Position numbers and translations under genes: made by a program
Source: Liolophura sinensis
Lineage: Eukaryota; Mollusca; Polyplacophora; Chitonida; Chitonidae
DNA length: 64,000 nt
Direction of reading: 5' to 3'
Assembly: GCF_032854445.1 (NCBI RefSeq)
Contig: NC_088304.1
Location: 32,232,810-32,296,809, forward strand
Notes under the pieces: generated by a model
What the model was told of the DNA's origin: nothing
Databases searched by the model: none
Seen by the model: the letters and a program-made list of their open reading frames with translations, nothing else
In this document: piece by piece, positions 5,665-30,314 of the stretch
Layout: every line of letters begins with the position of its first letter
Position numbering within the stretch: position 1 is the first letter of the stretch

Positions 5665-6333
5665 TCACCTGTCACCTTTTGACCGTCTTTCACTGCTTGC
5701 AAATGGCCATAATGCCAGAATGAAACCTATTGAAATACCAAGGATTAGAAAACCCCTTGCTTTATCCCCTTCTGCACTGACTTTCTCAATATTTGCCCTG
5801 CGAAACATTTCCTTGTCATGCTCTTTTTGTTGCATACTTTCTTCATAATGGCGTCTGTAAAATTCATCAAAGTTATAAATGTTAGTTTTGCCCCTTGGGG
5901 GAGTTTTTGTGCGCTCTCGAAATCCATGAACATCTCTAAATGGAGCAGGTCCAGAGCTGTCATCTTTGTAATGCCCTTGGGTGCCAGAAGGGTTGAAAAA
6001 GCCTCGGTCATACAGCTTCCTCTTTTGAACATTACCAAGAGTTTCATACGCCTCGGAAATTGCAGCAAATCTGGTAGATGCCTCCCTTGACTTGTTCACA
6101 TCTGGATGGTACATTTTTGAAAGTTCGTAATATGAAGCTTTGATCTGAGACTGTGTCGCTTTGGGTGTCAACGAAAGAGTGTCGTAGAAATTCTCCCTCT
6201 TTTTGGAGTCTCGGCGACTTGCGAGCCCTCTGGAAGGAAATGTAGCACTTCCCAACAGGTAAGTCGTTTTTGAATTTACTACACTTTGCCCATGCCTACA
6301 GAGGTGAGCAGCTTTCCTATGTATACTTTGCAT
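5665..6333 (-). CDS. DNAJC30: DnaJ homolog subfamily C member 30, mitochondrial
   Basis: A 222-residue, single-exon reading frame. Residues 1-45 are rich in Arg, Lys and Ser and almost free of acidic residues, as in a mitochondrial targeting peptide. Residues 48-111 are a J domain with the Hsp70-stimulating HPD triad at 76-78 and the helix IV end KRKLYDRG. A linker rich in charge follows, then one membrane segment at about 194-210 (FLILGISIGFILALWP) and a basic tail. Human DNAJC30 is also intronless, close to this length, and sits in the inner mitochondrial membrane, where the family is reported to contact ATP synthase and to help turnover of complex I subunits. The start chosen is the first Met of the frame and leaves a sensible transit peptide. 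BUD23 lies head to head 1.6 kb away, as in human. Confidence 0.93.
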   Translation of the reverse strand: MQSIHRKAAHLCRHGQSVVNSKTTYLLGSATFPSRGLASRRDSKKRENFYDTLSLTPKATQSQIKASYYELSKMYHPDVNKSREASTRFAAISEAYETLGNVQKRKLYDRGFFNPSGTQGHYKDDSSGPAPFRDVHGFRERTKTPPRGKTNIYNFDEFYRRHYEESMQQKEHDKEMFRRANIEKVSAEGDKARGFLILGISIGFILALWPFASSERRSKGDR

Positions 6334-6695: not shown

Positions 6696-7038
6696 ATACA
6701 AATCTAATACAAATAGCTAATTAACATAATCAATAATAACCAATGGAAATGGTCATATCATCGTTTAGTTATTTATGTATCTGATTGGTGTTTTACTCAA
6801 ACCATCTTAAGCCACAATATGATGTTGTTTTAGAGTTACTGTGACTGGACAATGCGGCAAGATGTTAGTTGATGGAAGACGGGTTTTCAGTATGGAGGCT
6901 ATTTATGGTATTGCTGAACAGCTGAAGTGAGCCTTTTTTTTCTGTCGGAAATGCAAGACTGAGTAGTCGACATCCTGCCTCTCAGTAAGTTGTGTGAATA
7001 TTAATGACGACACACCTCCACTTCGACCATCGACCATC

Positions 7039-7353
7039 TGTACTCATCTGTGTCAGAATGATGGTAAAGAACATTTACTGCATCTTAACACGTGCATTAA
7101 AATTTCCCTACCGTAAATCAATGTCCACCGAGTGGTCCCCACAATCAACTAACCTGTTTTGAGTCTCGCCAAACCAAAACAATCGATGACAACTGCACAC
7201 ATTCACATTTTCAGATACTAACCCTGTGAGACTGAGAATAGCCTAGCAGACTGTGTACACCACTCGGTTCACATCGACTTATGCTAGGAAAGTTTTAATG
7301 CACGTGTGAAGAAGACGTGCTAAATGTTCCGTACCGTCTTACACATCTGAGAC
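7039..7353. repeat. Fold-back element with about 95-bp arms
   Basis: The left arm, about 7,039-7,134, and the right arm, about 7,259-7,353, are imperfect reverse complements. The best core is ACACGTGCATTAAAA at 7,088 against TTTTAATGCACGTGT at 7,293. Both arms carry the E-box CACGTG (7,089-7,094 and 7,301-7,306). It could be a MITE or an old inverted duplication within the divergent promoter region. Confidence 0.7.
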
Positions 7354-7951: not shown

Positions 7952-7993
7952 ATGGCATCAAGTCGACCAGAAAGGCAAGCTCCGCCAGAAATT
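7952..7993 (+). CDS. BUD23: BUD23 coding exon 1
   Basis: Encodes [14 protein letters not shown], matching the start of BUD23 proteins (Pro-Pro-Glu). The donor GTACGT follows at 7,994; phase 0. The ATG is the first in a suitable frame and gives the expected N-terminal length. Confidence 0.88.
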
Positions 7994-10900
7994 GTACGTA
8001 ATATCCGCCAGAAATGCGACAGCATGTCTTTAAAAAGCTGTTGTTCATTTATGCTAACTGTCAAGTAAGCCGTCATTACGATACATTGGGATATATTAGT
8101 CAATTTCCAAGTGAAGTCAGTGACGAAAACTGAGCTTTCATTAGTTCAGACACGTTACAATTGTAAACATATTCATGGTACCTACATGTAGTTCTGTTTC
8201 ATGTGTTTTTGTTTTAATTACAGTATTACAATGAAGAAGAAGCCAAGAAATACACGTCAAAGTAAGTGCTTTAAGACGTATGTAGTGCTCTGTTGTGTTG
8301 AAAATGACAAGACTAATGTTTGTCTAAGTCAAACCACAGGTTGGAAGCTCTCATCTACTCACACCCCAATTAGGTCTCTCAACACTTACTAAATGCCATA
8401 TAGTATGTGTTCAGAGACCTAATTAGAGTACACTTGGATGAGACGTCCTGTTAGTCAATGGGGAACTTAAAAAAATTCTTCCAGCTTGTAACAAGATGGT
8501 CCAAAGTTATAAACTCTTTTGTTCTTTCCTTTATTACGTCACAGTTATCTGTGTATGTGTGCTCATAAAGCACATATGTAGTACACAGGCACTGAAGTGT
8601 CTGAGAACAAGACGATACATTCTACACTCATTTGGACCTTCTGTGTAATTTGGCCGCATGTCTCCTATTATCTCAATTTTGCTGTAGGGGAGTAGTAAAC
8701 TGGGGCTGCTGGGTAGATCATGTGGAAGAGAGTAAGGCATCATTCCATTGAAATGAAGAAACTAAAATTTTACAATGAACATGTAGGAAGTGGGTCTGCG
8801 GAAACAATGGACAACAGTCCATGTAGCCCATAAATCTAGAAGAACTTGGTGTGTTATTTTTAGACAAGTCAATCTAGCTGGACTAATCTTTGCTATAACA
8901 CGTTCTGATGATGGGCCCAATGCCGGGCCTTGGGACAGGGAATTTGTGAATTCCCCAGCTCTCACTGCTCATTTGTGCATCACACATGATAAAATTTGCC
9001 AGTAACTTGCCAAACGTCAGAGGTTTTCAACGGGTACTCTGGTTTCCTCCACTCGTAAAATTTTGGCTTTGTCACTGTTCTATGCTTGCTTTTGACTTGA
9101 CATCCCTTGTGGCACCACCTTACCACTCATTAGAGGTTTTTAAATTTTTATATAATATGATATACCAGCTCATATAATTGCTCATTGAAACTACTCTTAG
9201 CTTGATAACACTTCTTAACACTATACCCCTGTACACTATGACACTGTACCCCACATTACACCATCCGAACATAACACGGTACGGTACCTCACATAACACC
9301 GTACTCCATGTAACACCGTACCCCACATAACACCGTACTCCATATAACACCGTACCCCACATAACACCTTACACCACATAACACCATACCCCACATAACA
9401 CTGTACTCCACATAACACCATACCCCACTAAACACGGTGCCCCACGTAACACTGTACTCCGCCTAACACTGTAAGCCTCATAACACCATACACCACATAA
9501 CACCATACCCCACATAACACTGTACTCCACATAACACCATACCCCACTAAACACGGTGCCCCATGTAACACTGTACTCCGCCTAACACTGTAAGCCTCAT
9601 AACACCATACCCCAAATAACACCGTACTCCACATAAAACCGTACTCCACATAACACTCTACTCCACATAACACTGTATTCTACATAACACCATACCCCAC
9701 ATAACACTGTACTCCGCCTAACACTGTACGCCTCATAACACTGTACCTCGCATAACACCATACCCCACATAACACTGTACCCAACAGGACACTGTACCCC
9801 ACATAACACCGTATGCCACATAACACCGTACCCCACATAACACTGTACCCCACATAACACCATACCCCACATAACACCGTACCCAACAGGACACTGTACC
9901 TCACATAACACCATACCCTACATAACACCGTACCCAACAGGACACTGTACCCCACTTTACACTGTACCCCACATAACGAGGTACCCACATAACACCGTGC
10001 CGTGCATAACACTGTACCTAACATAACACCGTACCCCACATAATACCGTACCCCACATAAGACTGTACCCCACATAACACTGTACCTCACTTAACACTGT
10101 ACTCCACATAACAACATACCCCTACATAACACTGTACCCTATATAACACAGTATCCCCACACAACAAGGTACCCCACATAACACCATGCCCTACATAACA
10201 CTGTACCTCACATAACACCGTACACCACATAACACTGTTCCTCATGTAACACTGTACCCCCACCTAACACTGTACCCCACTTAACACTGTACTCCAAATA
10301 ACACTGTACCCCACGTAACACCATACCCCACATAACACCATACCCCAAATAACACTGTACCATACATAACACCATACCCCATGTAACACCATACCTGACA
10401 TAACACTGTACCTCACTTAACACTGTACTCCACATAACACCGTACCCCTACATAACACCGTACCTCACATAACACTGTACCCTACCTAATACTGTACCTC
10501 ACATAACACTGTACCCCACTTAACACTTTTCTCCACATAACACCGTACCCCACATAACACCATACCCCAAATAACACCTAGGAGTGTACCCCACTTAACA
10601 CTGTACTCCACATAACACCATACCCCACATAACACCGTACCCCACGTTACACCCTACCCCACATAACACTGTACTCCACATAACACCATACCCCACATAA
10701 CACCGTACCCCAAATAACACCCTACCAAACGTTACACCCTACCCCACATAACACCATACCCCACATAACACCGTACCCCACGTTACACCCTACCCCACTT
10801 AACACTGTACTCCACATAACACCATACCCCACATAACACCGTACCCCAAATAACACCCTACCCCACGTTACACCCTACCCCACATAACACTGTACTCCAC

Positions 10901-13900
10901 ATAACACTGTACCTCACTTAACACTGTCCTCCACATAACACCATACCGCTACATAACACCATGCCCTACATAACACCGTACCCCCCATAACACCCTACCC
11001 CATGTTACACCCTACCCCATGTTACACCCTACCCCACATAACACTGTACTCCACATAACACTGTACCTCACTTAACACTGTACTCCACATAACACCATAC
11101 CGCTACATAACACCGTGCCCTACATAACACCGTACCCCCCATAACACCGTACCCCATGTTACACCCTACCCCACATAACACTGTACTCCACATAACACTG
11201 TACCTCACATAACACTGTACCCCACCTAACCTCACATAACACCATACCCTACCTTAACACTGTACCCCACCTAACAATCTACCCCACTTAACAATGTATT
11301 CCACACAACACTACCTCACATAACACTGTACCCCACTTAACACTGTACCCCACCTAACAATCTACCCCACTTAACAATGTATTCCACATAACACTGTACC
11401 TCACATAACACCGTACCCCACTTAACACTGCACCCCACCTAACAATGTACCTCACATAACACCGTACTGTACATGACACTGTACCCCACCTAACAATGTA
11501 CCCTACTTAACACCATACCTCACATAACACCGTACCCTACTTAACATTGTACCCCACCTAACAATGTACCCCACTTAACACTTTACTCCACATAACACCG
11601 TACCCCACATAAGACTGTACCTCTCATATGACCGTACCTCACTTAACACTGTACCCCACCTAACACTGTACTCCACATAACACTGTACCATACCTTATAA
11701 TGTACCCCATTTAACACTGTACTCCACATAACACCATGCCCCACATAACACTGTACCTCACATAATACCGTACCCCACTTAACACTGTACCCCAACTAAT
11801 AATGTACCCTACTTAACACTGTACTCCACATAACACCGTACCCTGCATAACACTGTACCCCATTTAACACTGTACCCCACATAACAACGTACACCCTGCA
11901 TAACACTGTACCCCATTTAACACTGTACTCCACATAACACTGTACCCTACATAATACCGTACCCCACATAACAATATACCACTGAGGAACATATGTACTG
12001 TGTTAAGTGTAACTGGGCCTCTGTGGCCAGGTGGTTAATGTGCTAGGACAGCACAATGACTAAGAAGCCTCTCTTCAGTGCCTGGGCCCTCTGTGGCCAA
12101 GTGAGTTCACGCTGGCTTCCTCTCCGGTCATACGTGACCAGGCCTGTAGATGGTCAGGATTGTTGGAGTTCTAAAATGGCCCTGAATCGGCCAGATATTT
12201 GACACAGAAGCGGACAAAGCATGTTGTCCACATTCAGCACCCAAGTAACCATGGTAACTGAACTATGTATCACCTTTACCACAGAGATTTATTGCAAGGA
12301 ATAATGAAGCCTTGAAATTGGAAAGTAAACGGAATGAAAACACCCTGCTTGTAAGCCATAAATGTCAGTTCCAGCAAGAAAACTTTGTGATATGAGTAAT
12401 AATTTAATCAGAAGCAATTGTGTACCGATATATTAATTAGTACTGTTGAAACTTTAATGATTGTTATACATGTATGATCGCTGATTTATTTTGAGAAAAA
12501 AATAACTCATTGTGTTTAATTTTTTCAGTTCTCGTATGATAGAAATTCAGCAGCAGTTGTCAGAGAGAGCAGTAGAGTTACTGGCCTTGCCCGATGATGT
12601 GCCGTGTTTTATTCTGGATGTCGGGTAAGTGGGTTTGTTATTTTGTCAGTGGTCAAACACATACAGTACTGACCCTTGTAACTTTAATCATAATAATAGT
12701 GATGTCGAGGCGTCACCACATAAATACAAAAGCTTTCACAAGCTTTGGTGATGAATCAGCTTCATTATTATTATTATTTTTGCCCCGTATGACTATGTCT
12801 CTAAAGCATTACATAGTTTATTCATGTTACTTTGACTAACGTGTATGCCCACTGAAAGACTACCATTCAAAGTATCTTAAACTGACATCAAATATATTTT
12901 TTTCAACCCATTAAACGTTTAGTGAAACTTTGTGTTGACACAGCTTCAGCGTGTGTCCATTATTCACAGCAAGGTGACATCGCAATTACTCTAGCTCTTA
13001 AACATCAAAGGTGTTTTCTGTATAATAGTCAAAGCCGTAGCCTATATATTTCCTAGATATTTGTTTCACTATTTGAACTGTTGATACAGTAAGACTGCTA
13101 TATCATTTACAGTTAAAGTGGCCTGCAGATGCATGGCCAAGGTATTCCTGGTTCAGGTCCTAGCCTCCGAAAGGGTTGTGCTGACGATTTTGACCCCCTG
13201 TTAAATGTTTACAAAATTACAAAAAGATTGTTGTACAGCTAGATTCATGCTCAGTTCTGAAACAAATGGTAATAAATCTAAGCACCACTGATCAAGGTGT
13301 TCAACTGTCGCAGAACTTTAAGCTTCAGTTTTGTGTTGGTGGCTTCAAAGATGAGAGCAGTGCTGACCTAGTTATCACAGATGTCAGAGAAAGCTCCTCA
13401 GCTTGAACACAGCGTTTCAATAATTTTACTGTATTTTATAAAAGAAAACAGGGAAAAAAGGTATCCCTTGAGTGCAAGAAAGACAAAGGGGCAAACTTTA
13501 AATTCTACAATTCTAATAAATTTAGAGGAAAAAATTAATTAATATTAAGCATTGTCCGGTGAGGTGCCGGCTTCTCATTCCCATTAACTTTCGACATCTG
13601 TAATGAATCTTTCACTGACTCACTGACATTTGTTATTTAGGGTCTGCTGACTAAAAGCTAAAATGAAGGACAAAAAATGTATTTGTATAATTTTAACAGT
13701 GTGTCTAAGTAGGCTGAAGGTCTATTGGGGAGATGAATGCGGTTTTGGCAGAAATGGTATGCTACCGTCTGAAATAATTTGTGATTCTGCCGTTGAATAT
13801 TACACGGCATGTAAATCAACTAATTTTACATCTGTTGTGATACATAAATGACACAGACCTGTCCCACAACACTGTATGAAATGGCCCTTCAGCTACACGT

Positions 13901-16900
13901 AACTAAATCATTGTAAATGTTCTCAAAATGATTTCTCATGCGGTAGCTCTGTGTTACTTCTTATAGTGAATGATTAAAGGCTATGTCACTGCTTAGGTTG
14001 CACAATCAGATAGTAACCTGTTTGACTGGATAAAATTCTCAAGGTGTCTACCTTGATTCACACCAGCCATTTGTGCAGTATTGTCATTTTGTTCTTTATG
14101 TTATTCAGTGAAATCTCATTAAAATAATAAAGTATGATACTTTTAGAAAGCTTGAGAATCCCGCTTCCCGTTTCCCACTTCCGTGTGTCAGTCGAGTGCT
14201 GACTTGTCTTTTAAACATGTGACTAAATTCTTAAATACGAATCAGGAACCCCAGTGATAAAAAATAAAAATAAACTACGTCCACTGTAAATCTGCAACCT
14301 TTTCAACTGCTGGAGCACTTTTGGGTTGCAGAAAGGTTGGAAAGGTTGAAGAGTTTGGGTAGGCCTAAGGCAGCAACATGTTTCGGTACTTGACATAAGG
14401 TTCATAAATTCATTTTGCTGTGGTTTTTTCTTCTGTCCTGTAAGATGTGGATCAGGGTTAAGTGGAGAATGTCTTACTGAGCAAGGCCATACCTGGGTAG
14501 GAGTGGACATCAGTAGACCAATGTTAGGTGAGTCAGATATCAGTAGACCAATGTCAGGTGAGTCAGATACCAGGAGACCAATTTTAGGTGAGTCATATAT
14601 CAGTAGACCAATGTTAGGTGAGTCAGATGTCTGTTGACCAATGTTAGGTGGATCAGATATTAGTAGACCAATGTCAGGTGAGTCAGATATCAGTAGGCCA
14701 ATGTTAGGTGAGCCAGATATTAGTAGACCAATGTTAGGTAGTCCGATATCAGTAGGCCAATGTCAGGTGAGTCAGATACCAGGAGACCAATTTTAGGTGA
14801 GTCAGATATCAGTAGACCAATGTTAGGTGAGTCAGATGTCTGTTGACCAATGTTAGGTGGATCAGATATTAGTAGACCAATGTCAGGTGAGTCAGATATC
14901 AGTAGGCCAATGTTAGGTGAGCCAGATATTAGTAGACCAATGTTAGGTGAGTCCGATATCAGTAGACCAATGTTAGATGAGTCAGATATCAGTAGACCAA
15001 TGTCTGGGGTGTCAGATATCAGTAGGCCAGTGTTAGATGAGTCAGACATCTGTTTACCAATGTTAGGTGAGTCAGATATTAGTCGACCAATGTTAGGTGA
15101 GTCGGATATCAGTAGGCCAATGTTGAGTGAGTCTGATATCAGTGGACCAATGTTAGATGAGTCAGATTTTAGCAGACCAATGTTAAGAGTGTCAGATATC
15201 AGTAGACCCATGTTAGGGGAGTCCAATATCAGTGGACCAGTGTTAAGTGACAGATATAAGTAGACCAGTGTTTGGGGTGTCAGATATCACTAGACCAATG
15301 TTAGGTGAATCAGATATCATTAGACTAATGTTAGGTATGTCAGATATCTGTACACCAATGTTAGTTGAGTCAGATATCGGTAGACCAATGTTAGGTGAGA
15401 TGTTTTACCCTCTTGTAAACTTTTAAATTTTTCTTATCCCTTTTCTCAGGGACAAATAAAAACACCCAATTCTGCAGACAGGTACAGATCTTACTAATAA
15501 ACTGTATCGAATTTCCTCCTTTCTTTCCTTGTGTGCTTTGCTTGTAAATCTGCCCACCAGTGTATAAGTTAGACCCCAATGAATCCATTCAAATAAAGAA
15601 GTAAATATTTTCTGACGGTTGGATTTTTGCTGTTGTGCAGATGTAGCGGTGGAGAGATCAGCAGAGGGTGACCTAATCCATGAGGATATGGGCTATGGTA
15701 TACCCTTCAGACCCGGTACATTTGATGGAGTTATCAGGTACATATTGTGTACAAGTTTGCCAGCACATGGATGCACAAAGTGTCTTAAAATGTCGGAAAG
15801 CTACTTATGGTTCACTTGGGGGCAATTAGTGATGCCAGGTGTTGCTGAAGTAGATTTTATTACATTTGAAATGCAAGAGTTTATTATAGACACCCTGTCT
15901 GTGTATTGGTAGGGGCCTCTGTGGCCGAGATGGTTAGTGTGCCAGCACAGAACAGTGACTGAGTGACCCCTCACATGTAAAGGTCTGCCAGCATCCTGTA
16001 GCTGCCCTTGCACTCTGCCCCTGCCTTCTGCCCACTGTTTTCCCGCCAGAATGCTGGCTGCTGTTGTATAAGTGAAACATTCCTGAGGACAGCATAAAAC
16101 ACCAATCAGATAAATACATAAATCTGTGTATCGAGTAATGTGAATATCAGTGAAGACACACCTGCACTTCTACCAATGAAGACACACCTGCACTTCTACC
16201 AATGAAGACACACCTGCACTTCTACCAATGAATACACACCTCCACTTCCACCAATGAAGACATACCTGCACTTCTACCAATGAATACACACCTGCACTTC
16301 TACCAATGAAGACACACCTGCACTTTTACCAATGAAGACACACCTCCACTTCTACCAATGAAGACACACCTGCACTTCTACCAATGAATACACACCTCCA
16401 CTTCTACCAATGAATACACACCTCCACTTCTACCAATGAAGACACACCTCCACTTTTACCAATGAAGACACACCTCCACTTCTACCAATGAAGACACACC
16501 TCCACTTCTACCAATGAAGACACACCTGCACTTCTACCAATGAAGACATACCTGCACTTCTACCAATGAAGACACACCTGCACTTCTACCAATGAAGACA
16601 CACCTGCACTTCTACCAATGAATACACACCTCCACTTCTACCAATGAATACACACCTCCACTTCTACCAATGAAGACACACCTCCACTTTTACCAATGAA
16701 GACACACCTCCACTTCCACCAATGAAGACACACCTCCACTTCCACCAATGAAGACACACCAGCACTTCTACCAATGAATACACACCTGCACTTCTACCAA
16801 TGAAGACACACCAGCACTTCTACCAATGAATACACACCTGCACTTCTACCAATGAATACACACCTCCACTTCTACCAATGAATACACACCTCCACTTCTA

Positions 16901-19900
16901 CCAATGAATACACACCTCCACTTCTACCAATGAAGACACACCTCCACTTTTACCAATGAAGACACACCTCCACTTCCACCAATGAAGACACACCTCCACT
17001 TCCACCAATGAAGACACACCAGCACTTCTACCAATGAATACACACCTGCACTTCTACCAATGAAGACACACCAGCACTTCTACTCATGAAGACACACCTG
17101 CACTTCTACCAATGAAGACACACCTGCACTTCTACCAATGAAGACACACCTGCACTTCTACCAATGAAGACACACCTGCACTTCTACCAATGAAGACACA
17201 CCAGCACTTCTACCAATGAATACACACCTCCACTTTTACCAATGAAGACACACCTCCACTTCCACCAATGAAGACACACCTCCACTTCCACCAATGAAGA
17301 CATACCTGTACTTCTACCAATGAATACACACCTCCACTTCTACCAATGATGACACACCTCCACTTTTACCAATGAAGACATACCTGCACTTCTACCAATG
17401 AAGACACACCTGCACTTCGACCAATGAGGACACACTTTCACTTCGACCAGTGAAGACACACCCCCACTTTAAACAATGAATACACACCTCCACTTCCACC
17501 AATGAAGACACACCTCCACCTCGACCAGTGAAGACACACCTCCACTTCGACCAATGAACACACTCTTCTACTTCAACCAAAGAAGACACACCTCCACTTC
17601 TACCAATGAAGACACACCTCCACCTCGACCAATGAAGACACACTTCCACCTCGACCAATGAAAACACACCTGCACCTCGACCAATGAAGACACACCTCCA
17701 CCTCGGCCAATGAAGACACACCTCCACTTCGACAAATGAAGACACACTTCCACTTCAAACAGGAAAGGCACACTTCCACTTTAAACAATGAAGACACACC
17801 TGCACTTCGACCAATTGGGACACATCCGGAACTTCGACCAATGAAGAGGAACCTCCACTTGGACCAATGAAAACACACTTTGGCTTCAACCAATGAAGAC
17901 ACATCTCCACTTTGACCAATGAAGACACACTTCCACCTCGACCAATGAAGACGCACCTCCACTTTGACCAATGAAGACACATTTCCACCTCAACCAATGA
18001 GGACACACCTCCACTTTGACCAATGAAAATTGGTACTTGTTTGCCAAGGCATTTTAGTCCAACTGGTAATGTTAAGTGGATGAAACAGATTACGTTGCTT
18101 TTCAATCATCAATATTTCAGTACAAAATCAGGATGTTTGACTTTTAATTTTAATCATTAAATTTGGTATGTTCCTTTCTGTTGTTTTAGCTGAAATGTGT
18201 TCCATAGTAACTTATGCAGTATTTACATTGTCAAGCAACATTTTCGACCTTCTTACATCAAAAACAACAATTCTAATGTGGTTTGAAATTTTGACTTCAG
18301 TCTAAGATCACTTTGTGATCCTGGGGTGTCTTGACATAGCCTAGAATGGATAGATTTGATTGATCTGTTGTGGAGAGAGTGATTTACATGGTCTTACATG
18401 AAGTTACATAGATTAAATTGTTACGTAGATTACATTGTTATATAGATTACATTGTTTTCCACCAGCGCCGAGGGCACAGTTGGTAGAGCTTCAGGAGCAT
18501 TAGATCCTGGGTCGGATCACAATTAAGACTTTAAAAGAGGAAGTTGTAGCTTCCTTGCTCAGCGTTCAGCATTAAGTGCTATGGCTGGTTGACAGATATC
18601 GTTATAATGGCTCTGGCGGCGCGGCTTACTTGCCTTCGGTAAAGCGTCTCAGTGATGCTGCACTAGATAAAAGAACGGTGGAAATCCATCCTGCAACAAG
18701 AGGCACATTACATGCACACTATAAAGGACTCCTTTCATCGTCATATGACTGAAAAATTGTTAAGTACGACGTTAAACACCGAGCACTCACTCACTCGTAC
18801 ATGTAATGTTCAGTGGATAACACAGATTACATGACTTTTCACTCTTATCAGAAAATCAGATGCGTTGCCCCAGGATCACGAAGCAATCTTAGACTTAAGT
18901 CAAAATTTTAATCATTAAATTTGGTTTGTTGCTTTTCGTTGTTTAAGCTGAAATTTATTGCATAGTAACTTACCCAGAATTTGTGTTGTCACGCAATATT
19001 TGACTTTGTTACATTAATAATGACAATTTTAAAGTGATTTGAAATTTTGACCAAAGTCTAAGATCGCTTAGCGAGCATAGAATCAATAGATTTGAATGTC
19101 ATGGAGAGAGTAATTGAGATGGTCTTACATGAAGTTTCTCATACATTGCTTGTTTCCCACCAGTATGTCTGGCATTTTGGCGTAGTGATATCTTCTTAAG
19201 TCTAAATTCTTAGCCACAGGAACCAATTTGTCCTGTTTAAGTCTAAATTCTTAGCCACAGGAACCAATTTGTCCTGTTTAAGTCTAAATTCTTAGCCACA
19301 GGAACGAATTTGTCCTGTTTAAGTCTAATACCTTGGCCACAGGAACCAATTTGTCCTGTTTAAGTCTAAATTCTTAGCCACAGGAACCAATTTGTCCTGT
19401 TTAAGTCTAAATTCTTAGCCACAGGAACGAATTTGTCCTGTTTAAGTCTAATACCTTGGCCACAGGAACCAATTTGTCCTGTTTAAGTCTAAATTCTTAG
19501 CCACAGGAACGAATTTGTCCTGTTTAAGTCTAAATTCTTAGCCACAGGAACGAATTTGTCCTGTTTAAGTCTAATACCTTGGCCACAGGAACGAATTTGT
19601 CCTGTTTAAGTCTAATACCTTGGCCACAGGAACCAGTTTGTGCTGCTCTCTTTCAGTATCTCAGCTCTGCAGTGGTTGTGCAATGCAGACAAGAAGTTCC
19701 ACAATCCTCCTAAAAGGTTACACAAGTTTTTCAGCACATTATACGCTTCCATGGTAAGCCATTGTTTTCATCAAGATTACTTTTAAATATAAGTATAAGG
19801 TTTATTTAGATTTTTTAAAAAATCAGAAATCCCAGATAGAATTTCATCTGTAACAGATCCTGTTCTTTTTTATCTATTTGAAGTGCAGCAGATGTTTCCT

Positions 19901-22900
19901 TCTGTGATCAGTCATTTGTTTACTTTCTTTTGTTTTTACATCTAGTTTTCAATAAAATGATCTTCATATTACCTTTCTACAATCCAAGAAAAAGCAATTG
20001 TATTGCCATTTCTGACCATGGTCTTGCTTTTAAAGGGACATAAGCCTCCATGTGGCATCTTTCTTTCTTCCCACAAGATACATGTAATTACTTCCCAGGT
20101 GTCAAATCTCTTGTTCATTATGGTGAGAAGCATGTATACATTTAACTATTTGAATCACCTGGCTGAGATTTTCTGTGACATTTGACATATGCGCATATAT
20201 AAAACTGTGTGTGTTTTGACCAATTTGTTTCCTATTTTGTGTCTTCTCTGAAAGGCGCGTGGATCTCGTGCAGTCTTTCAGCTTTACCCAGAGAACAGCA
20301 GACAGGTAAGTAATGTTAAAGTCTTCCCTGTAATGTGCATTTATCTAGATTGTTGTGTTTCCCAGTCCCAGGGCAAGGGAATATAATATAATATATTAAT
20401 TGACTTACAGAGATTAAAACCAGAGCAGCAATAACATTGTGAAAAACTGGCATCTTGTCAATTTACCTCGGTTAGGGTGTTATTCTAATTTGTTCATTTA
20501 AATGCTTAGTTAGTTACATGCCTAATTACCTGCCCCCTAGCACCATTGCTTAAACAGATTTAGGTAATACAAAAATGCAGTGATGTAAATGGAAATATAT
20601 TAGACCTTACTGGTTTATGCAAAGTTTTATAAACCTTAACAGAGAGAGAAGTAGATCAGGTCCCATGATCAGGAGACTTAAATCAGACTTAGTCGTAAAT
20701 CAGACTTAGACTTAAGTTAGAATTAGCCTTAACTTGTAGTATTATTCCTGAACTTAGATTTAAACTTAAATTCTAATTTCAAATTTATCTTGAAAGAGTA
20801 ACAGAGCTGTAAGTATTAAAGTCAAAAAAAAAAGGTATGTCACAATTTCCCTTTAGTGTATTGATACAAGTGTGGACTCCAAACCCAGAGATTGCTGGTT
20901 CAAATCCCCAGCTGCCTAAGTCCTGTCACATGCAGCAATCTATTTTAAGGCTAATACCAAGTTTGAACCTAAGGTAGCTCCGTGAACCTGGGCCCAGGGG
21001 TAGGTTGCACCACTTTATACTATGAGGTTCAGATTCAGCCTAGGCCCATGACTGAAAATATGTTCGGTCATTATATATGTGGTGTGGTTTCTTTGTTTGT
21101 TTGTTTATTTATTCACCAGTGTAATATACAAAACGTAAGATTCATGTAAACATACAGAAACATACTGGCGGGAATAAAGCTCCATGGAGCTTGCTCTGTC
21201 CCATTAACATACAATTTGTATATAATACAGGCATGTGAACTGTGGTGGTTATAAACATGGTGATAATCTGTTCCTGTGAAAAAAAGTAAATAAATAAATA
21301 ATATATACAGGTGCTTATGGTAACGACTATCAAGTATATTATAGTGCGTTAGACTAAACGGAGAATAAGTGCTGCAGCATATACGATTTCAGTTTAGATT
21401 TGAATAAGGAAATTGACTGAATATTGTGCAAGTATGAAGGGAGTTTGTTCCATTCCCGAGGGCCAGCTACTTTAAGTTAACGATAGGACAGATTACTTTT
21501 AAAGGGTGTTCGATACAGGTCTGATGGCCGACGTGTTGTGCCATAGTGACGTATGTCAATGTTTTTGATAATGTAATTATTAAAACTAGGTGGTAATACT
21601 TTGGGGTGATGCAATAATTTATGCAATATCATATTAGTAGAAAAAATGTTCGATTCAGATAAGGGCAGAATTTGAAGAGAGTGTTCTAGGGACCTAGACA
21701 TAGTCACAATTCGAATAGCGCGTTTTTGCAATATTTGCAGAGGTTGCAAGTGAGACTTTTACGTGGTTGCCCACAAAATATTCCCTTATGAAAAATAAGG
21801 GTAGATCAAAGAATAATAAAGGATAAAAAGTGTTTTTTTTATTCACCAAATCCTTAATGTTGTTTAATATACCTAGATTCCTCGAGACCTTTTTACGAAT
21901 ACAATTTATGTGTGACGTCCAATTTAGCTTTTCGTTGAACATAAAACCAAGAAATTTGAACTCCTTGACTTGTTTAACCTCTGTCCCAGAAACAGTCAAG
22001 GGAACAGTGATTTGTGGTCTATGTCTACTCGCGGGCGAGATTAACATATACTTTGTTTTGTTAACATTTAGTGATAGGCGGTTTGCACAGAACCAAGTGT
22101 TCAGCTTCGCTAGCTTGAAAAATGAAGTCATGAAAGCCTAATCGACATTTTCACAGGAATAAGCTGTGCTCGTATCATCCGCAAAGAATATGATATTTAG
22201 GACGTTTGTTACTTTCGATATGTCATTTATGTATAATAGGAATAGTATTGGTCCCATGTTCGACCCTTGAGGCACACAACAACAATATGTGACAGTATTA
22301 AACAGTCATTCGGGGGCCTATTGTTGTTTGTACAGTCTTAATACATTGATTATAAACCTCTTTGCTTCCACCTGTACTATATACAAGTCTGTGTGTGACA
22401 GTTCAGCAGTATTTTGCCAAAGGTCATTGGTTTATTCCAGGCACTCAGACGTCCTTCACCCGTGAAACTAACTGCCATCGTACAGTGAAAAATGTTTTAG
22501 TAATACGTTGAAAACAACAGTTAAGTAAGTTAAATAATTAATTTGTGAGTAGAGGCAACGAAAATTAGGTGCACAAAATCAAAATTGTGGTGTACATGAT
22601 TGAATTCTGGACCGGAAGGAATTTCACTACTGGGTGACTATCTGTGTGCGTGTTTTGTCTGTTTCAGTTAGAACTGATCACCCAGCAGTCCATGAAGGCC
22701 GGCTTCACGGGGGGACTGGTGGTGGACTACCCCAATAGTACTAAGGCTAAAAAGTCAGTTATTATTCATGCATTTTATCACCGCAAATTGTTCAGCTCTA
22801 TCAGAATAAGTTGTACAATTATGCTGATTAAGGCTATGTGCTTAGATTTCTTTTTTTGAATGATAGCGAATTTACATCGTGTTGAAGGAACTTCAGAAAG

Positions 22901-25900
22901 AGTTTCTTCCATTTCCACATTCATATGATATGGTGCCACAGCCACAAATGACACTGTTCTTACACTACTGACACCATTTGAGCCTTTACAGGTTATATCA
23001 GTTGGTCTTCCATTACTTGGGTTCTCTTCCTCTCTGGCTGTACGTTGGAAGGTGTGTCAGCAACCTGCGCATGGTCGTGGGTTTCCCTTACAATCTGCCC
23101 AGTTTCCGCCCACCGTAATGCTGGTCGCCATTGTATAAGTGAAATATTCTTGAGTACGGCTTAAAAAACACCAATCAAATAAATCAATCAAATCTATTTC
23201 CACATTCGTTTGATATGGTGTCACAGCCACAAATGACACTGTTTTTACACTGCTGACACCATTTGAGCCTTCACAGGTTATATCATTCATTGATCTTCCA
23301 TTAATTGGGCTCTCTTCTTCTCTGGTCGTATATGGGAAGGTCTGTCAGCAACCTGTGGATGGTCGTGGGTTTCCCCCGGGCTTTGCCCGGTTTCCTCCCA
23401 CCATGACGCTGGCCGCCATCATATAAGTGAAATATTCATGATTACAATGTAAAACACCAATTAAAAAAATAAATAAAAAAATTAATTGGGTTTTCCGTTC
23501 CTGTTTAAGCAGAATTTACCTATTTTATAAACTCCAGTCCAGTTTCACGCAGTCTAAACCAAGTGAACATGTCCGTTAACGTGCATACAGCTGTACATCT
23601 TGTATACAGGATATATCTCTGTTTATTTGCTGGATGTATCTGTGATTATTTGCTGGATGTATCTGTGTTTAATACAGGATATATCTGTGTTTATTTGCTG
23701 GATGTATCAGTGTTTATTACAGGATGTATCTGTGTTTATTTGCTGGATGTATCTGTGATTATTTGCTGAATCTATCTGTGTTTATTTGCTGGATGTATCT
23801 GTGATTATTTGCTGAATCTATCTGTGTTTATTTGCTGGATGTATCTGTGATTATTTGCTGAATCTATCTGTGTTTATTTGCTGGATGTATCTGTGATTAT
23901 TTGCTGAATCTATCTGTGTTTATTTGCTGGATGTATCTGTGATTATTTGCTGAATCTATCTGTGTTTATTTGCTGGATGTATCTGTGATTATTTGCTGAA
24001 TCTATCTGTGTTTATTTGCTGGATGTATCTGTGATTATTTGCTGGATGTGTCTGTTTATTTGCTGGATGTATCTCTGATAATTTGCTGAATGTGTCTGTG
24101 ATTATTTTCTGGATGTATCTGTGTTTATTACAGGATGTATCTGTGCTTATTTAGAGGATGTATCTGTGCTTATTTGCTGGATGTATCTGTGTATATTTTC
24201 TGGATGTATCTGTTTTTATTTGCTGAATGTATCAGTGTTTATTTTCTGGATGTATCTGTGCATATTTGCTGAATGTATCGGTATTTATTTTCTGGATGTA
24301 TCTGTGCATATTTGCTGGATATATCTGTTTGTATTTACAGGATGTATCTGTGTTTATTACAGGATGTAGCTGTGTTTATATAGAAGATGTATCTGTGCTT
24401 ATTTGTTGGATGTTTCTGTGTTTATTACAGGATATATCTTCTCATTTTCTGGATATATCTGTGTTTATTTGCTGGATGCACCTGTGTTTATTTGCTGGAT
24501 GCACCTGTGTTTATTACAGATGTATTTGTGTTTAAGTAGAGGATATATCTGTGTTTATTTGTTGGATGTATCTGTGCTTATTTAGAGGATGTATCTGTGT
24601 TTATTACAGGATATATCTGTGTTTATTTGTTGGATGTATCTGTGTTTATTTAAATGATGCATCTGTGTATTTACAGGACGTATCTGTGTTTTTTGCTGGC
24701 TGTATCTGTGTTTATTTGCTGGGTGTATCTGTGTTTATTTAAAGGATGTATCTGTGTATTTACGGGATGTATCTGTGTATCTACAGGATGTACCTGTGTT
24801 TGTTTACGGGGGGAGCACCTCAGCAGTTGCCACAGGCTCTTGGCACAGGGACAGAGAGAAACGAAAATCAGATTGCATTCAGTGATAAACGGTGAGTTTT
24901 TATCTAGCAGATAGCATTCAGTGATAAACGGTGAGTTTTTATCTAGCAGATAGCATTCAGTGATAAACGGTGAGTTTTTATCTAGCAGATAGCATTCAGT
25001 GATAAACGGTGAGTTTTTATCTAGCAGATAGCATTCAGTGATGAAAGGTGAGTTTTCATACATAGCAGATAACGTTCAGTGATAAACTGTGAGTTTCAGC
25101 TAGCATATAGCCATACAGCAGGCAGCATTCAGTGATTAGCATTGAGTTGTCGTACATTGCAGGCAGCAATCAGTGATAAACGATGAGGTATGATGAGGTA
25201 TGTTATAGCAGGCATTTAGTGGTAAACTAGGTTTTATATAGTAGAAAGCATTAGGTGATAAACAATGAGGTATGGTATAGCTGGCATTCAGTGGTAAATT
25301 AGGTTATATATAGTAGAAGGTATTGGGCAATAAACGATGAGGTACGTTATAGCAGGCATTCAGTGGTAAACTAGGTTATATATAGTAGAAGGTATTGGTC
25401 AATAAACGATGAGGTACGTTATAGCAGGCATTCAGTGGTAAACTAGGTTATATATGGTAGAAGGTATTGGGCGATAAATGATGAGGTACATTATAGCAGG
25501 CATTCAGTGGTAAACTAGGTTATATATAGTAGAAGGTATTGGGCGATAAACTGTGAGGTATGTTATATAGGCATTCAGTGGTAAACTAGGTTATATATAG
25601 TAGAAGGTATTGGGCGATGAACGATGAGGTATGTTAAAGCAGGCATTCAGTGGTAAACTAGATTTTATATAGTAGAAGGCATTGGGCGATAAACGATGAG
25701 GTACATTATAGCAGGCATTCAGTGGTAAATCAGGTTTTATATAGTAGAAGGTATTGGGCGATAAACGATGAGGTACGTCATAGCAGGCATTCAGTGGTAA
25801 ACTAGGTTTTATATAGTAGAAGGTATTGGGCGATGAACGATGAGGTATGTTATAGCAGGCATTCAGTGGTAAACTAGGTTATATATAGTAGAAGGTATTG

Positions 25901-28278
25901 GGCGATGAACGATGAGGTATGTTATAGCAGGCATTCAGTGGTAAACTAGATTTTATATAGTAGAAGGTATTGGATGATAAACGATGAGGTACGTTATAGC
26001 AGGCATTCAGTGGTAAACTAGGTTTTATATAGTAGAAGGTATTGGGTGATAAATGATGAGGTATGGTATAGCAGGCATTCAGTGGTAAACTAGGTTTTAT
26101 ATAGTAGAAGGTATTGGGCGATGAACGATGAGGTATGTTATAGCAGGCATTCAGTGGTAAACTAGGTTTTATATAGTAGAAGGTATTGGATGATAAACGA
26201 TGAGGTATGTTATAGCAGGCATTCAGTGGTAAACTAGGTTTTATATAGTAGAAGGTATTAGGCGATAAACAATGAGGTACGGTATAGCAGGCATTCAGTG
26301 GTAAACTAGGTTATATATAGTAGAAGGTATTGGGTGATAAACGATGAGGTATGTTATAGCAGGCATTCAGTGGTAAACTAGGTTTTATATAGTAAAAGGT
26401 ATTGGGCGATAAACAATGAGGTACGTCATAGCAGGCATTCAGTGGTAAACTAGGTTTTATATAGTAGAAGGTATTGGGCGATAAACGATGAGGTACGTCA
26501 TAGCAGGCATTCAGTGGTAAACTAGGTTTTATATAGTAGAAGGTATTGGGCGATAAACGATGAGGTACGTTATAGCAGGCATTCAGTGGTAAACTAGGTT
26601 ATATATAGTAGAAGGTATTGGGCGATAAATGATGAGGTATGTTATGGCAGGCATTCAGTGGTAAACTAGATTTTATATAGTAGAAGGTATTGGGTGATAA
26701 ACGATGAGGTACAGTATAGCTGGCAATTAGTGGTAAACTAGGTTTTATATAGTAGAAGGCATTAGGCGATAAACAATGAGGTACGTCCTAGCAGGCATTC
26801 AGTGGTAAACTAGGTTTTATATAGTAGGATAAACGATGAGGTACGGTATAGCTGGCATTTAGTGGTAAACTAGGTTTTATATAGTAGAAGGCATTGGGTG
26901 ATAAAAGATGAGGTTTTTTGTAGCAAGTGACATTCAGTGATATGATGAGATAACTTGTGAGTTATTAGGTGTTACAATGTTTATAACCCCTCTTGAGCAA
27001 GATAGTTTGGTCATTGAGACCATCAGTGCAGTTACAGTCTTAAATACTTGACACATGGATTTAATTGTTCTTCTCCTTTGTGCACAGTTACGTGGGAAGG
27101 GCTCTGCCCAATTTCCTCTCTCTATAGTGCAAGCTGCGATGGTATAAGTGAAATATTCTTGAGTACTGTAAAACACCAATCAAGTGAAAAAATGTAAAAA
27201 AATCATATGCGCATAGCATTTTGAAAATCATAGTATACGCAAGTACATGCTTCATAGTTAGGCAAGTTTTGAAGAATTTGTACTTCCATTGATATGTATG
27301 TGGTGTCCATATAAAAATATTTAGAGCAATTATTTGTCATCACTTTAATTGGTGTTTATAGGCTCGTAGTATTTATCAGATGACCTTATGACATGTATAT
27401 GGTTGAACTATCCTTGGTTCTAATGTAGGGAGAGGTTGCGTAATGCCAGAGGCAAATCACTCAAGAGGAGTCGAGACTGGATCATAGAAAAGAAAGAGAG
27501 GAGACGACGACAGGGAAAGTAAGTCATTGTCATTGTGACATTAAAACCAAAGTTTTACGACATGTTCAGACCATTATAAATGAGTGGCATGTCCAAATCA
27601 CTGTGACCAAGTGGTTAAATGTGTTCAGACAGGAGACTATAGAAAATGATCTCCATCACAGAAGAGGAAAATTCTCTAGTGTGGTATTAACTAACAAAAT
27701 AAACTAATGGTGAGAGCGTCTACCTAGAAGTCGGGAGGTCAAACTAAAGACTTAAAAAAATGGTACTCGCTGGTGCCTCACTTGACGCTCAGCACTGAGA
27801 GATTAGAGCAAGGAATCGTGACTGGTTGGCTGGATGTCAGTATAATGTGACTGGGCGGGATGTCATGCCCGGTGTCTTTGACATGATACTTCAGTGGAGG
27901 TGGCGCTTTGGTGGCATGGACTTGCCCTGCCACAAGAAGACACAGTATATGTACACGCGCATAATGACTCCTTGTTGTCATGACTGAAAAATTAAGTACG
28001 ACATTAAACCCCAAGCATACATACATATTTATATATACATGCATGCCAACAAATAATCATTGTGGGGCAGGAAATCTAAGTAACTGTGCTCTGGGATATT
28101 GGTGGCAATAAGTTCAGTGTTGTAGTGTCATCTTGCATGGAGTTTGGACATCTTCCACTTCGCTCAAGTGTGAACACTATGACAAAGATTATCAGTTAAT
28201 TTGCGAATTTACTTTGTTTTCAGGCAAGTGAGAGCAGATACAAAGTACACCGGAAGAAAAAGAGGGCCCAAATTTTAA
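7952..28278 (+). CDS. BUD23: BUD23, 18S rRNA (guanine-N7) methyltransferase, 11 coding exons
   Basis: Exons 7952-7993, 8224-8261, 12529-12624, 14445-14527, 15641-15737, 19657-19753, 20255-20305, 22668-22753, 24787-24891, 27429-27518 and 28224-28278 join in phase at GT-AG sites to 840 nt, 279 residues plus stop (human 281). The enzyme uses S-adenosylmethionine to methylate a guanine of 18S rRNA during 40S maturation, with TRMT112 as partner. Seen here: SAM motif I DVGCGSG at 57-63, the acidic residue ending strand beta-2 (VGVDIS, D80), the motif [11 protein letters not shown] at 106-116, [12 protein letters not shown] at 121-132, [12 protein letters not shown] at 154-165, [12 protein letters not shown] ending at 197, YLCLF at 199-203, and a basic nuclear tail ending [10 protein letters not shown]. 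The introns carry six minisatellite arrays, three of them made from the gene's own splice junctions. All key motifs are intact, so the gene looks functional. Confidence 0.95.
8224..8261 (+). CDS. BUD23: BUD23 coding exon 2
   Basis: Acceptor TAATTACAG, donor GTAAGTGC. Encodes [12 protein letters not shown], equal to the FYDETEARKYVRNS region of the human protein, and ends in a split Asn codon. Confidence 0.9.
8348..8445. repeat. Short near-perfect hairpin in BUD23 intron 2
   Basis: Arms 8,348-8,395 and 8,398-8,445 are reverse complements with scattered mismatches and almost no loop. The best run is AATTAGGTCTCT against AGAGACCTAATT. The size, about 98 bp, fits a small MITE or a precursor-microRNA-like fold. 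Expression cannot be judged. Confidence 0.7.
9226..11985. repeat. Minisatellite in BUD23 intron 2, unit about 18 bp
   Basis: About 150 variable copies of CATAACACCGTACCCCA (variants CACTGTACTCCA, CACCATACCCCA) fill 2.75 kb. Long open frames on the minus strand (Val-Leu-Cys-Gly-Val patterns) are by-products of the periodicity. No likeness to any BUD23 exon was seen. Confidence 0.95.
12012..12150 (+). mobile_element. SINE family A fragment (5' part)
   Basis: GGGCCTCTGTGGCCAGGTGG and TCACGCTGGCTTCCTCTCCG match the head and middle of SINE family A. A piece of the head (GGGCCCTCTGTGGCCAAGTG) is repeated inside it at about 12,086. The 3' half is lost. Confidence 0.75.
12529..12624 (+). CDS. BUD23: BUD23 coding exon 3
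   Basis: Acceptor TTTTTTCAG, donor GTAAGTGG. Encodes [20 protein letters not shown] and on to FILDV plus a split Gly: the first half of SAM motif I (human LLDIGCGTG). Confidence 0.93.
14445..14527 (+). CDS. BUD23: BUD23 coding exon 4 (source of the adjacent minisatellite)
   Basis: Acceptor TCCTGTAAG, donor GTGAGT at 14,528. Encodes [19 protein letters not shown] and then VDISRPML (human VGLDISPAML), ending in the first base of an Asp codon completed by exon 5. The last 22 exon bases and the donor are the first unit of the 30-bp array that follows. I chose the first donor because it joins to exon 5 without adding residues relative to the family. Donors in copies 2-4 would add 10, 20 or 30 residues in frame. 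Confidence 0.88.
14504..15393 (+). repeat. 30-bp minisatellite made from the BUD23 exon 4 donor junction
   Basis: About 30 tandem copies of the unit GATATCAGTAGACCAATGTT followed by AGGTGAGTCA. The first copy lies in coding sequence (DISRPML). Because that peptide is conserved in human BUD23, the exon is the parent and the array the offspring. About 14 copies keep an intact GTGAGT donor, and four have CAG before it (copies 2, 6, 9 and 13, counting from 14,521). Copies 2-7 recur as copies 9-14, a higher-order block of about 210 bp. The exon frame stays open until TGA at 14,635-14,637. The right-hand copies are more diverged. Confidence 0.95.
15641..15737 (+). CDS. BUD23: BUD23 coding exon 5
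   Basis: Acceptor TTGTGCAG, donor GTACAT. Encodes [19 protein letters not shown] and then [12 protein letters not shown], aligned with human EAVDREIEGDLLLGDMGQG and its sequel, and ends in a split Ser codon. Confidence 0.95.
15912..16125 (+). mobile_element. SINE family A copy with internal loss
   Basis: Head GGGGCCTCTGTGGCCGAGAT, body TGTATAAGTGAAACATTCCT, tail AACACCAATCAGATAAATAC. The region around the B box is shortened compared with other copies. It ends about 25 bp before the intron 5 minisatellite. Confidence 0.85.
16152..18029. repeat. 26-bp minisatellite in BUD23 intron 5
   Basis: About 72 copies of AAGACACACCTGCACTTCTA plus CCAATG. Left and centre copies are uniform (CTTCTACC). 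Those from about 17,400 rightward are diverged and read CTTCGACC, the form also found once upstream of BUD23 at about 7,007. Minus-strand open frames with repeated Cys-Val-Phe-Ile-Gly are artefacts of the array. Confidence 0.95.
18060..19140 (+). repeat. Diverged tandem duplication, about 400 bp, flanking a SINE
   Basis: The segment at about 18,060-18,450 resembles about 18,803-19,140: both contain ATTTTAATCATTAAATTTGG, TAGTAACTTA, TTTGAAATTTTGAC and TGGTCTTACATGAAGTT in the same order. SINE family B (18,465-18,795) lies between the two halves. Confidence 0.75.
18465..18795 (+). mobile_element. SINE family B, near full length
   Basis: tRNA-like head (GGGCACAGTTGGTAGAGCTT, GATCCTGGGTCGGATCAC), body (GGCTTACTTGCCTTCGGTAA, CATCCTGCAACAAGAGGCAC) and 3' end GTTAAGTACGACGTTAAACA followed by short CACT repeats. 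Other copies are at 42,822, 43,707 and 56,040. Confidence 0.9.
19199..19644 (+). repeat. 41-bp minisatellite abutting the exon 6 acceptor
   Basis: Eleven copies of AAGTCTAAATTCTTAGCCAC plus AGGAACCAATTTGTCCTGTTT, with a variant AATACCTTGGCC. The last partial copy (GGAACCAGTTTGTGCTG) runs into the pyrimidine tract, only about 12 bp before exon 6, so the array supplies the branch-point region of this intron. Confidence 0.95.
19657..19753 (+). CDS. BUD23: BUD23 coding exon 6
   Basis: Acceptor GCTCTCTTTCAG, donor GTAAGCC after ATG. Encodes [14 protein letters not shown] and then [19 protein letters not shown], matching human SAVQWLCNANKK and onward. Phase 0 at its 3' end. Confidence 0.95.
20255..20305 (+). 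CDS. BUD23: BUD23 coding exon 7
   Basis: Acceptor TCTCTGAAAG, donor GTAAGTAA. Encodes [17 protein letters not shown], close to human VRGSRAVLQLYPENSEQ. Phase 0 at both ends. Confidence 0.95.
21100..22290 (-). mobile_element. 5'-truncated non-LTR retrotransposon (LINE) fragment
   Basis: On the minus strand, interrupted frames encode the C-terminal part of a reverse transcriptase. Near 22,265-22,285 is the [17 protein letters not shown] motif, near 22,171-22,188 the catalytic FADDT, then [11 protein letters not shown] and FKFLGF near 21,940-22,060, and a thumb/C-terminal piece at 21,477-21,749 ([12 protein letters not shown]). This is the layout of jockey/CR1-type elements. Frameshifts and stops separate the parts, so it is dead. 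It lies antisense in BUD23 intron 7. Confidence 0.85.
22668..22753 (+). CDS. BUD23: BUD23 coding exon 8
   Basis: Acceptor GTCTGTTTCAG, donor GTCAGT (weaker than the others). Encodes [16 protein letters not shown] and [12 protein letters not shown] plus a split Lys, aligned with human LELITTQATKAGFSGG. Confidence 0.95.
22909..23490 (+). repeat. Tandem duplication of about 290 bp including a SINE A fragment
   Basis: The block at about 22,909-23,190 recurs at about 23,199-23,490. Both contain GCCACAAATGACACTGTT, CTGACACCATTTGAGCCTT and GGTTATATCA, then the 3' two thirds of SINE family A (GTCAGCAACCTG through AAGTGAAATATTC) and an A-rich end. The copies differ by many substitutions. Confidence 0.8.
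23575..24786 (+). repeat. Minisatellite (21-23 bp unit) made from the BUD23 exon 9 acceptor junction
   Basis: Over 50 copies of GGATGTATCTGTGTTTATTT plus GCT or ACA. The unit matches the true junction CTACAG/GATGTACCTGTGTTTG at 24,781-24,800, where exon 9 encodes MYLCLF (human FYLCLF), so the exon start is the parent. Around ten copies keep ACAG before GATGT or GATAT, hence potential 3' splice sites. The last two units (from 24,745 and 24,766) are 21 bp and in frame with exon 9. The block 23,740-24,040 is homogenised as a 46-bp dimer. Confidence 0.92.
24787..24891 (+). CDS. BUD23: BUD23 coding exon 9 (both splice junctions copied into arrays)
   Basis: Acceptor TATCTACAG, donor GTGAGTTTTT. 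Encodes [35 protein letters not shown] and a split Arg. YLCLF and the following Gly match human; the middle is the variable linker. Upstream copies of the exon start and downstream copies of the exon end sit on either side. Confidence 0.88.
24875..26930 (+). repeat. Minisatellite made from the BUD23 exon 9 donor junction
   Basis: The last 17 exon bases plus donor, GCATTCAGTGATAAACGGTG and AGTTTTTATCTAGCAGATA, form a 39-bp unit starting at 24,875, 24,914, 24,953 and 24,992 with almost no change. Copies at about 25,031-25,180 are diverged. From about 25,200 the array is a uniform unit of about 74 bp, a dimer of two derived halves (GCATTCAGTGGTAAACTAGG and GGGCGATAAACGATGAGGTA), repeated some 23 times. 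The series shows direct descent from the coding junction. Confidence 0.92.
27085..27190 (+). mobile_element. SINE family A fragment (3' part)
   Basis: CTCTGCCCAATTTCCTC, GGTATAAGTGAAATATTCTT and AAAACACCAATCAAGTG match the family's 3' body; the head is missing. Confidence 0.8.
27429..27518 (+). CDS. BUD23: BUD23 coding exon 10
   Basis: Acceptor TTCTAATGTAG, donor GTAAGTCA. Encodes [17 protein letters not shown] and then [12 protein letters not shown], aligned with human KSRAWVLEKKERHRRQG. Strongly basic, as in the RNA-binding C-terminal domain of the family. Confidence 0.93.
27735..28025 (+). mobile_element. SINE family C copy in BUD23 intron 10
   Basis: CCTCACTTGACGCTCAGCAC, GGTGTCTTTGACATGATACT, GGCATGGACTTGCCCTGCCA and GACTGAAAAATTAAGTACGA. 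The 3' end is shared with family B but the middle differs. The same middle occurs at about 44,080-44,250. Confidence 0.75.
28224..28278 (+). CDS. BUD23: BUD23 coding exon 11 (terminal)
   Basis: Acceptor TTTGTTTTCAG. Encodes [17 protein letters not shown] and stop TAA at 28,276-28,278 (human VRPDTQYTGRKRKPRF), an essentially invariant C-terminus. Confidence 0.96.
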
Positions 28279-30263: not shown

Positions 30264-30314
30264 TTACAAATCGTCATCTGCGTCTTCATCTGGAAGAGCC
30301 ACGTCCTGTGCTTT
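30264..30314 (-). CDS. RAN: RAN terminal coding exon
   Basis: Acceptor GGTTAACAG on the minus strand. Encodes [16 protein letters not shown] and stop TAA at 30,264-30,266, the Ran acidic tail. Confidence 0.95.
   Translation of the reverse strand, partial: KAQDVALPDEDADDDL

Follow-up and report, generated by a model that had tools for sequence, protein, structure and literature searches.

A Mirage Minisatellite of Tandem Splice-Donor Copies at Exon 4 of BUD23 in the Chiton Liolophura sinensis

The BUD23 locus and its exon 4 donor array

The window analyzed here (64,000 nucleotides of Liolophura sinensis; RefSeq assembly GCF_032854445.1, contig NC_088304.1, positions 32,232,810 to 32,296,809, forward strand) holds a BUD23 gene with an intact frame of 11 exons on the forward strand, spanning 7952 to 28278 and coding for 279 amino acids. 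In our exon table, exons 1 to 3 lie at 7952-7993, 8224-8261, and 12529-12624; exon 4 lies at 14445-14527 (also supported by the human match), exons 5 to 8 at 15641-15737, 19657-19753, 20255-20305, and 22668-22753, exon 9 at 24787-24891, and exons 10 and 11 at 27429-27518 and 28224-28278. The gene is BUD23, as the original prediction had named it; the protein aligns with human BUD23 (6g4w) from residue 4 to the end (E value, 9.6e-112) and matches Pfam WBS_methylT (1.8e-21). BUD23, an essential rRNA methyltransferase, has an acidic residue that binds SAM where strand 2 ends. A protein search of the genome with exons 3 to 5 returned only the three exons at this locus and no second BUD23 copy, so the gene is seen as a single copy. 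A spliced retrocopy, which could have revealed the donor used, was sought in the same search with exons 3 to 5, and none was found in the genome.

Other features of the window include a RAN GTPase gene of at least five exons (30276-33860, minus strand) and, by eye, a frame resembling a DnaJ-domain protein (5690-6330, minus strand). Frames like a Ty3/gypsy-type reverse transcriptase and integrase (46870-50075, by eye) lie between 45631-46129 and 51429-53614, with arrays of a similar 61- to 65-bp unit on both sides, as if in the element's ends.

Intron 4 of BUD23 contains about 30 tandem copies of a unit that has a splice donor within it (14506-15400, forward strand; 22 exon plus 8 intron bases per unit). 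Walked unit by unit, the array comprises 30 units of 28 to 30 bp over 14506-15400, and Tandem Repeats Finder (TRF) reports a 30-bp unit in 29.8 copies at 14509-15399; both agree with the roughly 30 copies of a 30-bp unit, made of the last 22 coding bases of exon 4 and its donor, that had been described beforehand. Within the 279-amino-acid frame, the end of exon 4 reads ATGTTAG/GTGAGT. A probe of this border (18 + 6 bases) found 29 extra copies at 17 or more matches out of 24, with the best of 20 shuffled probes reaching 16/24. Copies 9 to 15 are nearly identical to copies 2 to 8 and form a second copy of this 7-unit block.

The motif DISxxML occurs in all five BUD23-type chains aligned, human included, with the spelling DISRPM at the end of exon 4 in the chiton, DISPAM in human, and DISPSM in yeast. 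Because the motif is present in human and other BUD23-type chains, the coding end of exon 4 is, on this conservation, the parent of the array, as had been proposed. Most array copies carry the chiton spelling DISRPM, which suggests that the array probably arose after that substitution. The exon origin was also checked genome-wide against an array far from BUD23; the unit has only two isolated 3-mismatch matches elsewhere, and a 197-base piece of the array matched the genome at the BUD23 locus only.

The donor GT is present in 22 of the 30 copies (copy 1 counted), namely in all of copies 1 to 15 and in 7 of copies 16 to 30. AG/GTGAG occurs in 15/30 copies, in line with the expectation of at least 14 consensus donors, and AG/GTGAGT occurs in 12; four copies (2, 6, 9, and 13) have CAG/GTGAGT, the number given earlier. 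With a score matrix built from 68 donors of the chiton genome, the donors of copies 1 to 4 (intron starts 14528, 14558, 14588, and 14618, forward strand, all in frame) scored 10.3, 11.9, 10.3, and 10.3 bits, equal to the 69th to 94th percentiles of those 68 donors, so that good donors follow one another; the four CAG/GTGAGT copies each scored 11.9 bits versus 10.3 bits for the first donor. Use of the donor of copy 2, 3, or 4 would give a predicted protein of 289, 299, or 309 amino acids, which reproduces, as computed frames, the foreseen additions of 10, 20, or 30 residues. The first in-frame stop on read-through is the TGA at 14635-14637 (forward strand), and the donor of any copy from 5 onward leads to a stop after 122 amino acids (by script), as the prediction of premature stops past this codon had it; copies 9 to 25 are also frame-shifted because copy 8 is 29 bp long, a point that the original prediction missed.

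Changes are unevenly placed along the array. In its distal half, the GT columns are changed in 8/26 cells versus 47/364 cells of the other columns (P = 0.019, a value that is too small because the copies are related and not independent), and in its proximal half, the counts are 0/26 and 43/364 (30-bp copies only, with the 28- and 29-bp copies excluded; the distal set is 13 of 15 copies). GT columns that are overly changed in one half and never in the other hint at less than full neutrality of the donors.

Copied borders at exon 9 and in other genes

When all 20 BUD23 borders were probed (18 + 6 bases), copies were found at 3, namely the exon 4 donor (29 copies), the exon 9 donor (29 copies, a count that takes in degenerate 72-bp units), and the exon 9 acceptor (43 copies); the other 17 gave no copy at 17/24, and of 20 shuffled probes tried for each border, the best reached 13 to 17. 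The acceptor-side array lies upstream of exon 9 (23609-24805, forward strand; 23-bp unit), with 43 copies at 17/24 and 49 at 16/24, of which 12/49 have AG at the splice position. If the exon began at one of the AG-bearing copies (start 24745, after the weak site TTAAAG), it would be longer by 42 bases, in frame and free of stops. AG is lost in 37/49 of these copies (23604-24783), a larger share than the GT lost in 8/29 exon 4 copies beyond the exon's own.

The donor-side array (24869-25111, forward strand; 39-bp unit) lies downstream and consists of the exon copy plus five copies with GT; read-through of the exon 9 donor meets an immediate stop (CGG TGA). A 72-bp array further downstream (25192-26914, forward strand) retains the core GCATTCAGTGRTAAAC from the end of exon 9, with the donor GT lost in the three copies inspected. 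Near its start, exon 9 codes for YLCLFTGG, the human equivalent being YLCLFSG; since this stretch is conserved in human, exon 9, too, is the parent of its copies.

Tandem arrays cover 48% (47.8%) of sampled BUD23 intron positions. Introns 2 and 5 contain large minisatellites at 9284-11973, 16151-18027, and 19196-19645 (17 bp × 158, 26 bp × 72, and 41 bp × 11), for which no exon parent was seen. A single unit resembling the 26-bp unit lies upstream of BUD23, near 7005-7040 (by eye).

Outside BUD23, border arrays were found at 5/184 borders (donors, 4/91; acceptors, 1/93), for a total with BUD23 of 8/204. Chaperonin exons (30 of 50 PF00118 matches, borders placed by eye) have tandem copies at 3/27 donors and 0/28 acceptors, the positives being loci L049 (66-bp unit), L057 (about 60 bp), and L060 (109 bp); shuffled probes gave two or more matches in 0/275 cases. 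Excluded from these counts were L043 (uninterrupted), the upstream end of L044, and the downstream ends of L064 and L068; by eye, L044 and L051 belong to Pfam family PF00118 but are not CCT subunits. Kinesin exons (60 of 132 matches, taken in E-value order from those that contain no stop and fall short of the profile ends, with one eligible match skipped) have copies at 1/60 donors (L111, 63-bp spacing) and 1/60 acceptors (L076); their borders were chosen by script, so that some negative picks may be off, whereas both positives were read, and long units could be missed because the flanks are only 450 bp. The RAN GTPase borders in the window have tandem copies at 0/9.

A first, cruder screen of 60 loci had flagged five (L049, L056, L057, L058, and L060), of which L056 and L058 showed no copies of their borders by the border-probe criterion. 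None of 30 RRM loci was flagged in that screen; since many of them are single long frames without interruption, they do not enter the border counts. At L058 (about 605-2426), a chaperonin exon has arrays on both sides (27-bp and 41-bp units) that start near its borders without copying them by the border-probe criterion. At L111, the exon donor is GTAAGA, and the copies have a weaker-looking GTAATG; a G at +3 in every mirage donor (5/5 across BUD23 and the chaperonins) was dropped as a shared feature on account of this GTAAGA. The idea that the exon 4 array is a special case was likewise dropped, given two further arrays at exon 9 and five at the 184 borders of other genes.

Array density around exon borders

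Tandem arrays occupy 13.1% of positions in chaperonin flanks, 8.0% in kinesin flanks, 3.7% in RRM flanks, and 7.9% in the rest of the window (for the flank rates, overlapping loci are counted more than once and some neighboring exons are included). For another chiton, a tandem repeat content of 9.21% by TRF is reported (PMC11545220). For a point placed at random, the chance of having an array edge no more than 60 bp away is 0.98% for chaperonins, 1.12% for kinesins, 0.81% for the rest of the window, and 2.27% for BUD23. Set against such rates for 60-bp and 100-bp edges, the eight border-spanning arrays compare with 2.4 to 3.5 expected (RAN entered the expectations as 8 borders, with 9 examined). 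Measured by where array edges fall, border-spanning arrays are thus not avoided, and they are mildly favored at most.

Exon borders might instead be preferred birth places of minisatellites, for example, through splice-site motifs or transcription-linked breaks, a reading that we consider unlikely. It draws on the excess at a 60-bp edge, where 5 arrays were seen versus 1.95 expected outside BUD23 (P = 0.048) and 3 versus 0.45 in BUD23 (P = 0.011). With a looser edge of 100 bp, however, the excess outside BUD23 fades (5 versus 2.86, P = 0.16), that in BUD23 is 3 versus 0.64 (P = 0.028), and BUD23 was selected because one array had already been seen there; a strong enrichment was therefore not upheld, the signal being suggestive and varying with the definition of the edge. 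Compared with random positions in flanks or introns, borders are also less often found inside arrays (kinesins, P = 0.006; BUD23, P = 0.003; chaperonins, P = 0.11), which speaks against preferential seeding and, as a sign that some selection acts, against full neutrality.

Interpretation and known systems

We infer, with a probability of about 0.75, that the exon 4 array is an expanded, border-straddling mirage minisatellite that is close to neutral and whose exon-proximal donor is nearly always used. A short tandem duplication would by chance have straddled the border of exon 4 and intron 4 and would have grown to 30 copies via the usual slippage and unequal exchange, with one 7-unit block duplicated whole. 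With the first copy still attached to the exon and the last one leading into the original intron, the reading frame would be preserved and the additional copies would be intronic. Most likely, the spliceosome would pick the exon-proximal donor nearly always, removing the copies with the intron, which would leave them close to neutral. Minisatellites abound in this genome, both close to genes and within them, and a small share of these arrays extends over an exon border, be it donor or acceptor; as border-spanning arrays are no rarer than array edges predict, they are most likely a tolerated by-product, with the exon-proximal donor used. The 279-amino-acid frame, which stays intact if the first donor is used or if copies 2 to 4 are in-frame insertions, fits this reading, and the four copies that score above the first donor count against first-donor use. 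In classical in vitro work, splicing between two equal donors favored the one further downstream.

Tandem repeats spanning exon-intron borders were named mirages in the amphioxus globin and Adh3 genes, where they are length-unstable and splicing is reported to be undisturbed (PMC3087553); they were extended to TnC, with similar repeats in PGBD5 (PMC3902484). The amphioxus mirage genes described in these sources are Adh3, TnC, and the globins BflGb6 and BflGb9, with units from 10 to 72 bp (Adh3) to 160 bp (globins) (PMC3087553, PMC3902484). As described there, amphioxus mirages resemble the exon 4 array in spanning a border, in having many AG/GT signals, and in having a parent copy in a working gene, and they resemble the chiton arrays in lying at 5′ or 3′ borders. 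In the chiton, likewise, the unit spans a border, the parent is a true exon border in a gene whose frame is intact, and AG or GT is found in many but not all repeats (GT in 22/30 at exon 4; AG in 12/49 at exon 9), at both 5′ and 3′ borders (acceptor and donor of exon 9; kinesin acceptor at L076 and donor at L111). Past length change in the exon 4 array is seen as the duplication of block 2 to 8, at one place in the assembly. Unlike the amphioxus cases, the chiton arrays are in a mollusc, comprise 30 donor copies at one border and copies on both sides of exon 9, and occur at 8/204 borders, in BUD23, chaperonin, and kinesin genes. No mirages in molluscs were found in the literature searched, where they are known from lancelets and human genes only. 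The exon 4 array is thus a mirage minisatellite, a known kind that is new in molluscs within that literature, and mirages are apparently frequent in the chiton genome.

Quite unlikely, in our judgment, is a useful role for the donors of copies 2 to 4, which would insert 10, 20, or 30 residues after the end of the SAM-binding strand while distal donors lead to a stop and copy number tunes output. In the human IFI6 (G1P3, 6-16) minisatellite, two downstream repeat units act as donors, giving three mRNAs (Turri et al. 1995, as cited in PMC4526556). As far as this source describes it, IFI6 resembles the exon 4 array in that several donors follow one another where an exon ends in tandem repeats; it differs in that its two downstream donors are used, whereas those of the exon 4 copies are predicted donors. 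Copies 2 to 4 are in frame and have strong donors, copy 2 exceeding copy 1; GT is kept throughout copies 1 to 15, with the GT columns of the 30-bp copies 2 to 15 unchanged, although the duplication of block 2 to 8 accounts for part of this retention in copies 9 to 15. The IFI6 unit is shorter than the 30-bp unit of exon 4. Against a useful role, an insert would land in the conserved methyltransferase core, and the exon 9 donor array, of a like kind, has no in-frame option, so a coding benefit cannot be the general reason for such arrays. The undisturbed splicing reported for amphioxus also speaks against it, and we count it for the neutral reading of the exon 4 array; with the downstream donors used in IFI6, both outcomes have precedent.

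Among human duplicated genes, variable internal tandem repeats at exon-intron borders underlie 27 intron modifications (De Grassi and Ciccarelli 2009; PMC2812944). These repeats share their place at exon-intron borders with the exon 4 array; as presented in that source, they alter introns between recent paralogs, whereas chiton BUD23 is seen as one copy.

An assembly artifact is very improbable; tandem arrays are difficult to assemble and HiFi coverage is reported as 14-fold, but the reads average 8.3 kb versus an array of 0.9 kb (PMC11068029), and the exon 4 copies differ from one another. A foreign or intronic satellite that predates the end of exon 4 and supplied the sequence for it would fit a unit present 30 times but in coding DNA once. 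This order of events is dismissed as extremely improbable, being contradicted by DISxxML in the five aligned chains and by the unit having only two isolated 3-mismatch matches elsewhere in the genome.

A wider proposition, which we hold to be rather improbable, is that mirages are frequent at chiton exon borders, possibly as preferred minisatellite birth places, so that thousands of exons would have decoys, some of which, used in frame (in BUD23 included), would yield length-variable proteins.

If such arrays are as common as in our sample (8/204 borders; 5/184 without BUD23), one genome would offer a natural collection, very large in size, of identical splice sites in competition, adjoining real exons on both the donor and acceptor sides. 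Existing RNA-seq data could then show which of several equal sites the spliceosome selects in vivo, a point on which exon-proximal choice and the downstream preference known in vitro make opposite predictions. Copied borders also bear on possible routes to new introns, and the mirage phenomenon is extended to molluscs.
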